The position numbers were made by a program, and so were the translations under genes. Of a DNA stretch of 50,299 nucleotides, positions 11,024 to 40,347 are shown piece after piece. Every line of letters starts with the position of its first letter. Within the stretch, counting starts at the first letter, position 1. The notes under the pieces were generated by a model that did not search any database, was not told the DNA's origin, and saw nothing but the letters and a program-made list of their open reading frames with translations. The DNA comes from Alphaproteobacteria bacterium (GTDB taxonomy: Bacteria > Pseudomonadota > Alphaproteobacteria > JAJTHO01 > CANGXP01): positions 1-50,299 of the forward strand of contig CANGXP010000008.1 in the NCBI GenBank assembly GCA_947457935.1, written 5' to 3'.

Positions 11024-11129
11024 CCCCAGCTTCCCGCTGCGCAAGCGCCTGCGCGGCGAGTCGCTGGTGATTCGCCACTCCCGCAACGACTGCCTGCGGT
11101 GCGAATTACCAGCGGAAGCTGGTATCCAG
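11024..11129. repeat. REP-like palindrome family 1, copy a
   Basis: The right arm AGCGGAAGCTGGTATCCAG (11111-11129) and the left CCAGCTTCCCGCTG (11027-11040) are imperfect inverted repeats. The same sequence occurs as a near-perfect element at 20309-20393 and as a half unit at 14252-14286. The loop here is longer and GC-rich (GCGCAAGCGCCTGCGC). First part of the ~600-bp gene-free stretch 10959-11570. Confidence 0.75.
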
Positions 11130-11183
11130 AAACTCTTTAGAAATTTAAGCGGATTGGTATAACTACCCAGCTACCGGAGTATC

Positions 11184-14251: not shown

Positions 14252-14286
14252 CTGGACACCAGCTTTCGCTGGTGATTCGCCACTCT
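14252..14286. repeat. REP-like palindrome family 1, half unit (copy b)
   Basis: CTGGACACCAGCTTTCGCTGG followed by TGATTCGCCACTC matches the left arm of the element at 20309-20393 and parts of 11024-11129. A small ACCAGC-tttc-GCTGGT hairpin is present. It lies just downstream of the helical-repeat gene. Confidence 0.75.
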
Positions 14287-15425: not shown

Positions 15426-16835
15426 CTAATTCGCCCGTTGCACTGCCACTGCCCGTTGCGCAACTTGGGCATTCGCAGGGCGGCGCATGGCAATGAGTTT
15501 CATCTCAATTTGTGAGAGGCGGTTTTTGAAGGCAACCAGTTCTTTGCCAACTAACTGTTCTGCTGTTGGCAATTTCAAGCTGCTCGGATTAACTTGTTCG
15601 CCTTTGACCAACACTTCATAGTGCAGGTGAGGCCCTGTGGAACGCCCTGTTGTGCCAACATAGCCGATAACCTCGCCTTGTTTAACGCGCACACCTTCTT
15701 TAATGCCCTTGCGGAATGCGTTCAAATGCGCATAGGCTGTGGCGAATTCTGAATTGTGGCGAATTTTAATGTAATTCCCATAGGCACCGTTGGGCCCGAC
15801 TTCGGCAATAATGCCGTTCCCCGCTGCATGGATCGGGGTGCCGATGCTTGCTGCAAAGTCAACGCCTTTGTGCATTTTGCTATAGCCCAAAATGGGGTGG
15901 AAACGCATCCCGAATCCTGAGGACATGCGGACATTATCAACGGGTGTTTTGAGGAGGGCTTTTTTGATGCTCATGCCATTGCGATCATAAAATGCTTGTT
16001 CACCCTCTTGATTTTCATAGCCATAAATACGGCGTTCTTTGCCACTTAAAAGAAGCGACGCATAAAGAATATTACCTGTTCTCGCGGCATCTCCCTTGTC
16101 ATCGATATATTTTTCATAGACGATTTCAAATTTATCGCCATTTTTGAGATCCCGTTGAAAGTCAACGTCATAGCTAAACGCACGGATCATTTTAATCATT
16201 ACGCCCATCGGCACGCCTGCGTCATCACCTGCTTCAAACAGGCTTAAATCAATCACGCTGCCGCCATAGGCAAAAGTTTTCTGGAGGGTGCGCCCGAGTT
16301 TTTCCGCTGTAAAGCTGTCGTCCTCACGATATACAAGCACATCTGTTTCAGGATCAGGGCGGAAATAGATGCCTTCAATCGCATCTGCTTCCTCTGTTGT
16401 TGTTTCTGAGAGAGAAGATTTTATAACGTAAATTTCTTGGTCTAATTTCAGATTTTTGGGATCCCACACGTCTTTTAGGGCTTTTACGGCAACGTGGGCA
16501 TCTTCTGTTGCAACATTTTGCGATTGCAGGAGGGCAATTAAGGTGTCGCCCGAACGCACCGTTAGTTTCTGTTCGTAAAGATTTTCAGGCGTGGTGCTAA
16601 AATATTTTGCAAATTGTTGAAGCGCTGCAGAGGGTTTTTTTACTGTTGCGGCTGTAGGCACAGGAATAGGCTCCGCTTTCGCGGCGATTTTTTGCACGGC
16701 GGCTGTATTTTTTGTGGGCTTTGCTGTCTCATGGAAGAGCACTGACGCACAGAAAATAACAGCAGAAACCGCTGCCATCGTCAAGATTAGTCCAAAACGC
16801 ATAGAAGTATGCTTTGCTATGTATCGTTTTTTCAT
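15426..16835 (-). CDS. M23-family metallopeptidase (peptidoglycan endopeptidase)
   Basis: About 469 residues. A membrane anchor near the N-terminus (about 14-35, LILTMAAVSAVIFCASVLF) is followed by a periplasmic region. A LysM/opacity-associated-like part (about 90-130, LTVRSGDTLIALLQSQ) precedes the LytM/M23 domain. The zinc site is visible: MHKGVDFAA near 320 and HLHYEVLVKGEQVNP near 405, with TAYAHL between. It is therefore expected to be catalytically active and to cut cross-links in peptidoglycan, as in MepM/ShyA-type enzymes. ATGs at 16838 and 16835 are both possible; GAGG at 16843-16846 fits the second better. Upstream lies the structured element 16880-17027, shared with clpB. Confidence 0.88.
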   Translation of the reverse strand: MKKRYIAKHTSMRFGLILTMAAVSAVIFCASVLFHETAKPTKNTAAVQKIAAKAEPIPVPTAATVKKPSAALQQFAKYFSTTPENLYEQKLTVRSGDTLIALLQSQNVATEDAHVAVKALKDVWDPKNLKLDQEIYVIKSSLSETTTEEADAIEGIYFRPDPETDVLVYREDDSFTAEKLGRTLQKTFAYGGSVIDLSLFEAGDDAGVPMGVMIKMIRAFSYDVDFQRDLKNGDKFEIVYEKYIDDKGDAARTGNILYASLLLSGKERRIYGYENQEGEQAFYDRNGMSIKKALLKTPVDNVRMSSGFGMRFHPILGYSKMHKGVDFAASIGTPIHAAGNGIIAEVGPNGAYGNYIKIRHNSEFATAYAHLNAFRKGIKEGVRVKQGEVIGYVGTTGRSTGPHLHYEVLVKGEQVNPSSLKLPTAEQLVGKELVAFKNRLSQIEMKLIAMRRPANAQVAQRAVAVQRAN

Positions 16836-16879
16836 CATGCCTCGTTATGGTTAACAAAGCATTACGGTTGCTCCACTTT

Positions 16880-17027
16880 AGAGCACGTCTATTAACCTCT
16901 TTTCTAGGGCGATTGGCATCGTCAGAAGTTTTCTCGGAATCCGCACGTACATAAGGGTACGCTTGCGTTTCCTTGAAAAATTCTTTCTCGCCACTCATCC
17001 CGATAAAAGGGTTACTAGAGGTGCTCT
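16880..17027 (-). repeat. Structured 148-nt leader element, copy 1 (upstream of the M23 gene)
   Basis: Read on the minus strand, the 5' arm AGAGCACCTCTAGTAACCC and the 3' arm GGTTAATAGACGTGCTCT are complementary over about 25 bases. Between them are blocks identical to copy 2 (37621-37765): CTTTTATCGGGATGAGTGGC, GTACGTGCGGATTCCGAG, CTGACGA and GCCAATCGCCCTA. The inner blocks can pair as GGG..UGGC with GCCA..CCC. Arms differ between copies but remain complementary. It ends 41-44 bases before the M23 start codon; TATAAT (minus strand, 17075-17070) may be a -10 box upstream, so it is probably transcribed as leader. Function unknown. The rest of 16839-17229 is AT-rich with no gene. Confidence 0.75.
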
Positions 17028-17229
17028 TTAAAATGCTACATGCCTACAAGCTGTTTCTGGCAATGTAGTATTATAAATTGCAACAACCATAACACTTTAC
17101 AATAAAAAAATAAAATTACAATAAATGTTTTTCTGTGTTTACGCCTCTTTTCGCAGGTGCAACAAAAAGCCGTGTTCCTTATCCTCTGCTTATAGAGAGA
17201 AGGCAACAACTTTGTTGATTGCTGTTATT

Positions 17230-18237
17230 TTACAGGATCTTACCGAATGAAACCGCGGTATCGAGCATGCGGTTTGAGAAGCCCCATTCGTTGTCATACC
17301 ATGAAAGGATACGCACAAACGTGCCTTCAATTACCTGTGTTTGGGTGAGGTCAAAGTTAGAGCTGAAGGGCGAATGGTTGAAATCACACGACACAAGCTG
17401 TTTATCAACGGTGCTGAGGACATTAAGGAGGTAGCCCGCTGCAGCTTTTTTCATCGCGCTATTGATTTCTTCAACGGTTGTAGCGCGGTTTGCGACGAAC
17501 TTAAAATCAACAACAGAGACGTTGGGCGTGGGAACGCGGATAGACGTGCCATCCAACTTGCCTTTAAGTTCAGGGATAACGAGTCCAATCGCCTTTGCCG
17601 CGCCCGTTGAGGTGGGGATCATGGACAACGCTGCGGCACGAGAACGGCGCATATCCTTGTGCGCGGTATCCACCAATTTTTGGTCGCCTGTGTAGGAGTG
17701 AATGGTGGTCATGTAGCCGTGTTTAATGCCTGTGAGCGTTTGGAGGACATGAACGACGGGCGCAAGACAGTTGGTGGTGCAAGACGCGTTGGAAATAACA
17801 GTGTGCGATGCGTTCAGTTGGTCATGGTTCACGCCATAGACAACTGTTAAATCAACGCCATCCGCAGGGGCAGAAATAATGACTTTTTTCGCGCCCGCCG
17901 CAAGATGTTTGCTGGCAGATTCCTTAGAGGTGAATACGCCTGAGCATTCCAGCGCAATATCAATGTTGAGGGGTTTCCAAGGGAGGTTGGCAGGATCACG
18001 CTCGCTGTAAACTTTAATCACACCGCGCCCAAGGTCAATTCCTTCAGGGGTGACGGTGACGGGGAAGGGGAAACGACCGTGAACGGAGTCAAACTCGAGC
18101 AAATAGGCGTTGCTTTCGGCGGAGCCAAGGTCATTAATCGCAACAATTTCTACATCATTGCGACCACTTTCATACAGCGCACGCAAAACGTGACGACCAA
18201 TGCGACCAAATCCATTAATTGCTAAACGAATAGCCAT
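17230..18237 (-). CDS. gap: Type I glyceraldehyde-3-phosphate dehydrogenase
   Basis: 335 residues, normal length. The NAD-binding start is [17 protein letters not shown], and the active-site cysteine lies in [12 protein letters not shown] with the partner His in [10 protein letters not shown]. It converts glyceraldehyde 3-phosphate to 1,3-bisphosphoglycerate in glycolysis/gluconeogenesis. The Asp in VAINDLGS after the second strand favours NAD. It follows tkt on the same strand with a gap of 43 bases, the tkt-gap order usual in alphaproteobacteria; pgk, which often follows, is not here. Confidence 0.96.
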
Positions 18238-20308: not shown

Positions 20309-20393
20309 TCTGGATACCAGCTTTCGCTGGTAACACGCACCACAGGAAACATCTTCGTGGGTGGCGAATTACCAGCGAAAGCTGGTATCCAGA
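20309..20393. repeat. REP-like palindrome family 1, intact copy c
   Basis: Arms 20309-20333 and 20369-20393 are perfect 25-bp inverted repeats (TCTGGATACCAGCTTTCGCT... and its complement) around a 35-base loop. Each arm also contains the small palindrome ACCAGC-tttc-GCTGGT. This is the best preserved member; diverged copies are at 11024-11129 and 14252-14286. It occupies the divergent tkt/zapA intergenic region, which otherwise shows no gene. Confidence 0.85.
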
Positions 20394-20541
20394 ATATTAT
20401 GGAGGATAGCTGCGGAGTGATGATTTATTCGAGCGCGATGTATACGAAACAGGGGTGGCAAAAGCAAATGTGTTTTTGCAGATTGACGAGAGGGGTTTTC
20501 CTGCTTACTATTTATTCTCTTAACCTGAAAGATGAACGCCC

Positions 20542-37585: not shown

Positions 37586-37620
37586 ATTTTCGTTTTTCAA
37601 GCGCATATCTTTTACAATTG

Positions 37621-37765
37621 AGGGCACTTCTAAGAACTCTTTTATCGGGATGAGTGGCTAGAAAGGGCGATACGAGGAAGCGTAAGCGTACAAAGGTACG
37701 TGCGGATTCCGAGTATTGCGCTGACGACGCCAATCGCCCTAAAAAAGAGTTTCTAGAGTTGCCCT
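37621..37765 (+). repeat. Structured 145-nt leader element, copy 2 (upstream of clpB)
   Basis: The 5' arm AGGGCACTTCTAAGAACTCT and the 3' arm AGAGTTTCTAGAGTTGCCCT are complementary over about 25 bases. The inner blocks CTTTTATCGGGATGAGTGGC, GTACGTGCGGATTCCGAG, CTGACGA and GCCAATCGCCCTA are the same as copy 1 (16880-17027). Here AGGGCGAT (37664-37671) is also exactly complementary to ATCGCCCT (37733-37740). The 3' arm ends one base before the clpB Shine-Dalgarno region (TGGAG), so folding could affect clpB translation. Confidence 0.75.
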
Positions 37766-37779
37766 GTGGAGTAAAAGAG

Positions 37780-40347
37780 ATGAACCTTGAAAAATATACC
37801 GACAAGAGCCGTGGTTTCTTGCAAGAGGCGCAAGCCCTTGCGATGCGTCGCCGCCACCAGCAATTCTTGCCCCTCCATATCCTCGCTGCCTTGATGGCGG
37901 ATGAGGCAGGTTTTTGTGCGGGAATTTTGCGGAATATTGGCGCGAACCCTGAAAAAATCCGTGTTGATGTAGAAACTGCCCTAGAAAAGTTACCCCGTGT
38001 GGAAGGACAAGGGGCAGGAGGGCTGTATGCTCATGCCTCGATCGCCGATTTATTTGCAGCAGCGGAGCAACTCGCCCAAAAGACAGGTGATAAGTTTGTG
38101 ACCGTTGAGCGGTTATTGCAAGCAATCACGATGGGCAAAGAGGAAGCGGCGACCATTTTAAAGAATAATGCTGTGAGTGAACAATCACTCAACAAAGCGA
38201 TTGAGTCTTTAAGACAAGGCAGAACGGCTGATAGTGCGGCGGCAGAGAACAACTATGAGGCGCTGAAGAAATATACGCTGGATTTTACGGAAAAAGCGCG
38301 GAGCGGCAAGCTAGACCCCGTGATTGGGCGCGATGAAGAAATTCGCCGCACTATTCAAGTGCTCTCCCGCCGCACGAAAAACAATCCTGTGCTGATTGGC
38401 GAACCGGGCGTGGGGAAAACAGCGATTATCGAAGGGCTTGCCTTACGGATTGTGAATTGCGATGTGCCTGATAGCTTAAAAGATAAGCAACTGCTTGCGC
38501 TTGATTTAGGCTCGCTTGTTGCGGGAGCAAAGTTTCGCGGCGAGTTTGAAGAGCGTCTGAAAGCCGTGTTGCAGGAGATTCACAGTGCGGCGGGACAAGT
38601 GATTTTGTTTATTGATGAACTCCACACGCTGGTGGGGGCAGGGGCGGCAGAAGGCTCCATGGATGCCTCAAACATGCTGAAACCCGCGCTTGCACGGGGA
38701 GAATTGCACTGTGTGGGTGCAACGACACTGGATGAATATCGCAAATATATCGAAAAAGATGCAGCCCTAGCACGGCGTTTCCAGCAAGTCTTTGTGGCGC
38801 AACCAACCGTCGCGGAAACTATTTCTATTTTGCGCGGCATAAAAGAAAAATATGAAGTACACCACGGGATTCGCATTGCGGACAATGCGTTGATTGCCGC
38901 AGCAACCTTGTCTGACAGATACATTACCGACAGATTTTTGCCAGACAAAGCGATTGATTTGGTGGATGAGGCGGCGGCACGCTTGCGGATGCAAGTGGAC
39001 TCAAAACCTGAGGAGATTGAAGATTTAGATCGTGCGATTATTCAGTTGAAAATTGAGCAGCAAGCCTTGCAAAAAGAAGGGGACAAGGCATCGAGTGAAC
39101 GCTTACTCATTTTAGAAAAAGAGTTAGCGGAGTTAGAAGAAGAATCTGCAACGCTAACAGCGGATTGGCAGCGTGAAAAAGCGAAACACACCGATGTGCA
39201 GCAGGTGAAAGAAAAAATCGATGCGCTGAAAAGTGCATTGGAAGTAGCGCAGCGCACAGGGGATTTAGCGCGTGCGGGAGAAATTGCCTATGGGCAACTG
39301 CCTGTCTTGCAAAAACAACTTGAGGCGATGACAACGGCCGATGTGGGGCAATTTGCCGATGAAGTGGTGACAGAGCAAACCATTGCAGGGATTGTGGCGC
39401 GGTGGACGGGCATTCCTGTAGAGAAAATGTTAGAAGGGGAGCGCGAAAAACTGCTCACCATGGAGGCCGCGCTCACACAAAAGGTGGTGGGGCAAGATGC
39501 CGCTGTGACGGCGATTAGTAAGGCAGTGCGGCGGGCGCGGGCAGGCCTGCAGGATAAAAATCGCCCGATTGGTTCATTTTTATTTTTAGGCCCCACAGGG
39601 GTGGGCAAAACCGAACTCAGCAAAGCTATTGCGCAGTTTCTGTTTGATGACGAGACAGCGATGGTGCGGATTGATATGTCCGAATACATGGAAAAGCACG
39701 CGGTGGCGCGGCTGGTGGGCGCCCCTCCCGGTTATGTGGGGTATGAGCAAGGGGGTGTGTTGACAGAAGCGGTGCGCCGTCGCCCCTATCAGGTCGTGTT
39801 GTTTGATGAAGTGGAAAAGGCGCATGCGGATGTTTTTAACATCTTGCTGCAAGTGCTTGATGAAGGGCGGTTGACGGATAGCCACGGGCGGACGGTAGAT
39901 TTTCGCAATACGCTGATTATTCTCACCTCCAATTTAGGGAGTGAGATTCTAAATGAACAACCGTACGATACACCAGAGGAAATTTTACGCCCCCTCGTGA
40001 TGGACAAAGTGCGGCAACACTTCCGCCCTGAGTTTATTAATCGATTAGATGAGATTTTATTGTTCAATCGCTTAACCCAAGCGCAAATGGCGGGTATTGT
40101 CACGATTCAACTTAAAAGGCTGGAAACGCTAATGAGCGAACGCTCACTCACGTTAAGTGTAGCAGAAGAAGCGCGGGATTGGCTAGCGCGTCAAGGGTAT
40201 GATCCGACCTACGGGGCGCGACCGTTAAAGCGGGTGATACAAAAATATTTGCAAGATCCATTAGCAGAGAAGATTTTGCGCGGGGAGCTTAAAGAGGGCA
40301 CGATGGTTACGGTGACGGCGGGGGAAACAGGGCTTCTTTTTTCTTAA
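37780..40347 (+). CDS. clpB: ClpB protein disaggregase
   Basis: 855-residue Hsp100 AAA+ chaperone that, with DnaK, pulls proteins out of aggregates. N-domain ([20 protein letters not shown]), first Walker A GEPGVGKT near 207, coiled-coil middle domain (about 400-520), second Walker [10 protein letters not shown] near 603, and C-terminal [17 protein letters not shown]. The open frame continues upstream to 37654 through the structured element, but homology and the GGAG at 37768-37771 favour the ATG at 37780. Heat-shock control is expected; I see no clear sigma-32 site. Confidence 0.96.

Follow-up and report, generated by a model that had tools for sequence, protein, structure and literature searches.

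The Rickettsia palindromic elements (RPE) are palindromes dispersed between genes and also found in frame in conserved protein genes (PMC2229807). Together with their Wolbachia equivalents, they resemble the element described here in size (about 105-146 bp), in the formation of one long hairpin and in the coexistence of intergenic and in-frame genic copies. They differ in that a 4-bp target duplication is clear in the present element, whereas the duplication of RPE is given as '?' in a review (PMC2229807). A palindrome in frame within conserved protein genes, as expected of the RPE type, was found in AcpS, AddB and a GT4 glycosyltransferase, and apparently for a relative at L301 in genome G332, but this likeness concerns descriptions and not sequence, and the element is not classed as RPE. 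Moreover, the order of the host is probably not Rickettsiales, as inferred from the collection holding only four genomes of that order. Similarly, ERIC/RU-1, Correia/NEMIS and YPAL are short non-autonomous palindromes with terminal inverted repeats, and several of these repeats carry open frames fusing to genes (PMC2229807), but their hosts are others. A further likeness is with RIME, Sm-repeats and AB/C motifs of Sinorhizobium, which are dispersed structured intergenic repeats in Rhizobiaceae (PMC2573895), RIME being compared with the present element by description and not by RIME sequence. The tip consensus presented below matches Ensifer adhaerens, but S. meliloti is absent from its listed matches although the collection includes pSymB of strain 1021. 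Finally, small RNAs from Thalassospira look like the arms of this tip; the paper describing them interprets them as miRNAs (PMC6413936).

The window, i.e. the whole stretch of 50,299 nucleotides of alphaproteobacterial DNA that was analysed, contains two copies of the element. The first-pass annotation of this DNA had described a duplicated sequence upstream of two genes; the duplication is real, each limit lying one base inside the coordinates given earlier. The features are as follows:

16881..17026, minus strand: palindromic element copy 1, full length, 146 nt (covariance model 160.8 bits; alignment)
37622..37764, plus strand: palindromic element copy 2, full length, 143 nt (covariance model 140.4 bits)
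17027..17030, minus strand: target-site duplication TAAA, upstream side of copy 1
16877..16880, minus strand: target-site duplication TAAA, downstream side of copy 1
16940..16963, minus strand: apical hairpin core of copy 1, AGCGTACCCTTATGTACGTGCGGA, a motif common across the class (pattern match)
37685..37706, plus strand: apical hairpin core of copy 2 (pattern match)
15426..16838, minus strand: M23 peptidase gene, downstream neighbour of copy 1 (Pfam PF01551; ATG at 16838)
17230..18237, minus strand: gapA (type I GAPDH), upstream neighbour of copy 1 (TIGR01534)
37780..40347, plus strand: clpB, downstream neighbour of copy 2 (TIGR03346; ATG at 37780)

Other details of the earlier description hold as well. 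Three inner blocks are identical between both copies in the alignment, the outer arms (GAGCAC/GTGCTC versus GGGCA/TGCCC) differ yet remain complementary with a compensated A-T versus G-C pair, the immediate TAG in the clpB copy is present, and each copy lies upstream of a gene on its own strand, with start codons at 16838 for the M23 peptidase and 37780 for clpB. These two genes and gapA are neighbours, outside the element. An 18-base block has two matches versus 0.01 expected by chance. Copy 1 folds at -64.3 kcal/mol (z -8.1 over 16876-17030) and copy 2 reaches z -7.5 over 37618-37770, i.e. both are 7.5-8 SD more stable than dinucleotide shuffles. Copy 2 has no intact target duplication (flanks TTGA/TGTG). 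The window also holds a second palindromic repeat family (TCTGGATACCAGCTTTCGCTGGTA...) at 11061-11131, 14252-14283 and 20309-20394, one of the three sites being a near-perfect 40-bp inverted repeat. Two direct-repeat pairs, 6163-6223/7109-7169 and 7042-7083/7796-7837, lie about 0.75-0.95 kb apart and are probably a duplicated gene or operon segment.

Copies, termini and target duplications

In the host genome (1.83 Mb, 72 contigs), 19 close elements were detected at 20 blastn places, comprising 17 full-length and two damaged copies (L018, L019), and a covariance model search added about 16 more distant copies. The modal length is 146 bp (9 of the 17 full-length copies), and all copies have a common fold, one long imperfect hairpin. 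With termini GGGCAYYTCTA...TAGARRTGCCC, the element is short, bounded by terminal inverted repeats, dispersed and without its own transposase, as is characteristic of miniature inverted-repeat elements (MITEs). The covariation test proposed in the first-pass annotation gave a strong result over the 17 host copies: paired cells reach 91.6% versus 82.7% in shuffles, and changes on both sides are seen in 23 of 56 pairs, compared with a shuffled mean of 14.8 and with 6 to 15 pairs in slid controls. None of 500 shuffles reaches any of the five covariation measures, a count that is not a probability because the alignment rows are related copies of one genome. No Rfam match was obtained at gathering score for the window and related element loci, nor any match on an element at a relaxed threshold. 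The subfamily block TATCGGGATGAGTGGCNAG gave seven matches in unrelated phyla in a contig scan of genomes, near chance level, and was absent from viral contigs; among the genomes searched, it is limited to the host. Blastn of a window copy against plasmids and of a related element against phages returned no match.

Exact 4-bp target duplications at the GGGCA...TGCCC boundaries flank 6 of the 17 copies (TAAA, TACT, TATG, TTGA, TTTA and GTTA) versus 0.06 expected, and flanks agree at three or more of four bases in 11 of 17 versus about 1.5 expected. Permuting the right flanks 100,000 times never equalled either measure, and duplication lengths other than 4 bp show no comparable excess. The element thus transposes, and each of its many insertion sites is unrelated to the others, the target being duplicated over 4 bp. 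Its ends act as terminal inverted repeats, and they enclose an interior of unrelated sequence in a second genome: in G003, from the same order as the host and another family, the host-element termini surround a different interior (CGTCATTGCGAGCG...). This 131-bp multi-copy family (L120, L132, L156-L160) has 4-bp duplications too, exact in seven elements (TGTT, AAAA, TATA, TTGA, ATGG, CTTA and GTCA). Within the host itself, one element (L031:483-614, contig C29) has main-family termini around an unrelated, G003-like interior (CGTCATTGCGAACAAAGCGAAGCAATCC). The termini therefore behave as an exchangeable transposition module, and the hairpin tip as a module of its own. Altogether, the element is very probably a non-autonomous transposable element of MITE type, about 146 bp long and folded as one long imperfect hairpin.

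Mobilization may be carried out by a DDE-type transposase acting in trans on the termini. An autonomous transposon with GGGCAYYTCTA-type ends was not found in G000-G003, which are fragmented assemblies. The only clear DDE_Tnp_1 match in the host genome is an IS5-type transposase split into two ORFs (L066, contig C32, about 1465-2260); its inverted repeats, AGAACCAGTCACGTAAACCT, are other than those of the element, and it was rejected as mobilizer. IS30 copies in G002/G003 were rejected likewise, having other ends, and a 2.77-kb G003 stretch bounded by element ends consists of ribosomal-protein genes between two partial repeats.

The hairpin tip across families and genomes

The covariance model of 17 copies also detected host elements with other termini, family C (CAGGACTTACGCAG) and family D (AGGYTCTGTTGAGA), neither of which has clear target duplications. 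The tips of family D and one family-C-like tip resemble the tip of family A, with 0-1 of 5000 palindrome-preserving shuffles as similar, and two typical family C tips show a weaker likeness (20-23 of 5000). We know of no report of one tip common to families with different termini for ERIC/RU-1, Correia/NEMIS or YPAL. The same model matches elements in other orders. Of 385 alphaproteobacterial genomes, 23, host included, contain the tip pattern AGCGTAC-N3-7-GTACGTG[A/C]G[C/G]A, and none contains its reversed control; matches in three of the 23 genomes are not independent support because the pattern was picked after seeing them. There, the pattern is joined to other termini. A wider tip consensus, GAGAACCGGAGCGCAGCGTAC-loop-GTACGTGAGCACCGGAAGCGCAG, was found in many IMG/VR contigs and on 32 plasmids, for which all genera listed are alphaproteobacterial, at least 10 in number and including Sphingobium, Shinella, Agrobacterium and rhizobia; a longer-element query also listed one Legionella plasmid. 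Tip copy number is very high in some small alphaproteobacterial genomes, with 109 pattern matches in G157 (0.9 Mb), 31 in G147 and 26 in G332. Seven closely similar IMG/VR loci (L234, L235, L239, L251, L261, L263 and L271) contain AACCGGAGCGTACACGTAGTACGTGAGGA with their own flanks, GGACAGCGCGGAG...GAGCACTGCC, and possibly represent a conserved phage-borne version of the tip.

Among 69 non-redundant tips, the outer helix covaries, with 54 double-change cells versus 11 in shuffles. Since the inner six pairs are fixed by the search pattern, the count of tip pairs with double changes (4 of 10) does not exceed that in shuffles. With helices that covary and internal-loop bases that are fixed, the apical hairpin would be kept for something that its folded form does. 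Because one and the same tip persists in distantly related alphaproteobacteria next to termini of various kinds, the likeliest form would be RNA, namely a hairpin within a host transcript that may be bound or cut, for example by RNase III or another conserved factor. At mismatched pairs, G-U cells outnumber A-C cells by 39 to 21 in the 17-copy alignment and by 13 to 5 in the 69 tips, an excess that is weak and non-independent between copies and gives a weak hint of maintenance as RNA in the orientation drawn. Small-RNA sequencing in Thalassospira reported TTCGGTGCTCACGTACTTTTAG (5p) and TGCGCTCCGATGCGCGTGAACC (3p) at more than one T. lucentensis locus (PMC6413936, Table 5). By inspection, the pair seems to correspond to the tip's two arms, read from the complementary strand, a lead that suggests transcription of the tip.

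The main competing explanation is that of a plain MITE, in which the complementarity of the arms is maintained by DNA-level processes alone, RNA playing no part; these processes could involve a cruciform or single-stranded DNA substrate or template switching at a quasi-palindrome. The dispersal of the element, its termini and its target duplications are then accounted for without anything further, and template switching, by which one arm is copied from the other, can change both sides of a pair without any selection. When distinct pair types are counted, G-U and A-C also differ little, 17 versus 13. However, the non-complementary internal-loop bases of the tip are the part conserved across the class, G-U cells are in excess of A-C cells, and both tip arms apparently occur as small RNAs in the Thalassospira table (PMC6413936). 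The DNA-only explanation is a strong contender, somewhat short of an even chance, and maintenance of the tip at the RNA level is favoured over purely DNA-level causes with a confidence that is itself about evenly balanced. More specifically, the tip could be a conserved structured RNA module of Alphaproteobacteria with a defined partner, repeatedly gaining new termini, a mobile RNA cargo whose hairpins are processed from host transcripts and tolerated in essential genes; this fuller proposal is tentative and, on balance, rather doubtful.

It could also be hypothesized that the tip itself is mobile, as a REPIN- or attC-like hairpin that travels in the form of single-stranded DNA, with the differing termini being secondary. 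Its presence in many genomes, and in three host families (A, C and D) whose ends differ, would agree with this. However, the 4-bp duplications map exactly to the GGGCA...TGCCC ends, for family A as for the elements of G003, and such duplications are the mark of transposition at the termini. A mobile tip is very unlikely.

In-frame copies and gene context

Each insertion adds 150 bp, the 146-bp element plus a 4-bp duplication, and hence 50 codons. Three copies lie in frame within open genes, namely acpS, addB of the alphaproteobacterial type (TIGR02786) and the gene for a GT4 glycosyltransferase, where the copy is in reverse orientation. The type of addB points to the Alphaproteobacteria as the class of the host. 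When the flanks are joined with a single copy of the duplication, uninterrupted normal AcpS, AddB and GT4 proteins are obtained. Alignments of solved AcpS chains cover both sides of the insert and skip it; for chain 3qmn, the aligned parts are residues 1-91 and 157-176. Another copy alters the last residues of thyX. Of 18 further copies checked in three genomes, one, the related element at L301 (G332, contig C10), is apparently in frame inside an ORF that by eye resembles an HK97-type phage capsid gene. The element frame from ATGAGTGGC is open in six copies, but the three codon positions are about equally variable (20/48, 18/48 and 17/49 columns), so that the peptide itself does not seem to be under selection; a conserved leader peptide was rejected for this reason.

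Counted by eye from the ORF table, with divergent sites entered on both sides, main-family copies are found upstream of a gene 10 times in sense and eight times in antisense orientation. Three copies are located between convergent genes, three within coding sequences and one between tRNA-Gly and tRNA-Trp, and the neighbours (gpsA, pheS, recG, gyrB, rne, tRNAs, thyX and others) are functionally unrelated. The first-pass annotation had proposed either a leader RNA controlling envelope/proteostasis genes or a MITE whose RNA is structured, and this gene context does not support the former. A riboswitch-like or thermosensor-like RNA acting in cis on the downstream gene would be consistent with the strongly conserved, covarying structure and with the location of several copies, including both in the window, immediately before start codons. 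It is nevertheless very improbable, given unrelated neighbour functions, no consistent position or orientation, convergent, coding and inter-tRNA sites, target duplications that identify the copies as insertions and no Rfam match. The element does not appear to act as a regulatory switch of the M23 peptidase gene or clpB. The MITE side of the proposal stands, with dispersal, duplications, termini and covariation in its favour. By the criterion set in the first-pass annotation, a plain MITE would show numerous randomly inserted copies, duplicated targets and a lack of covariation; the copies and duplications were found, but the covariation is clear, and therefore the label of plain MITE does not fit either.

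If this reading is correct, many alphaproteobacteria, plasmids included, have acquired copies of a structured element that lacks annotation, and one element family makes 50-codon in-frame inserts in essential enzymes beyond the best-known cases of Rickettsia and Wolbachia. Small-RNA surveys may list such repeats as miRNAs or leader RNAs, which calls for caution. What moves such repeats and what keeps their folded core are long-open questions, and the combination of exchangeable ends with a conserved tip would provide a direct test of both.
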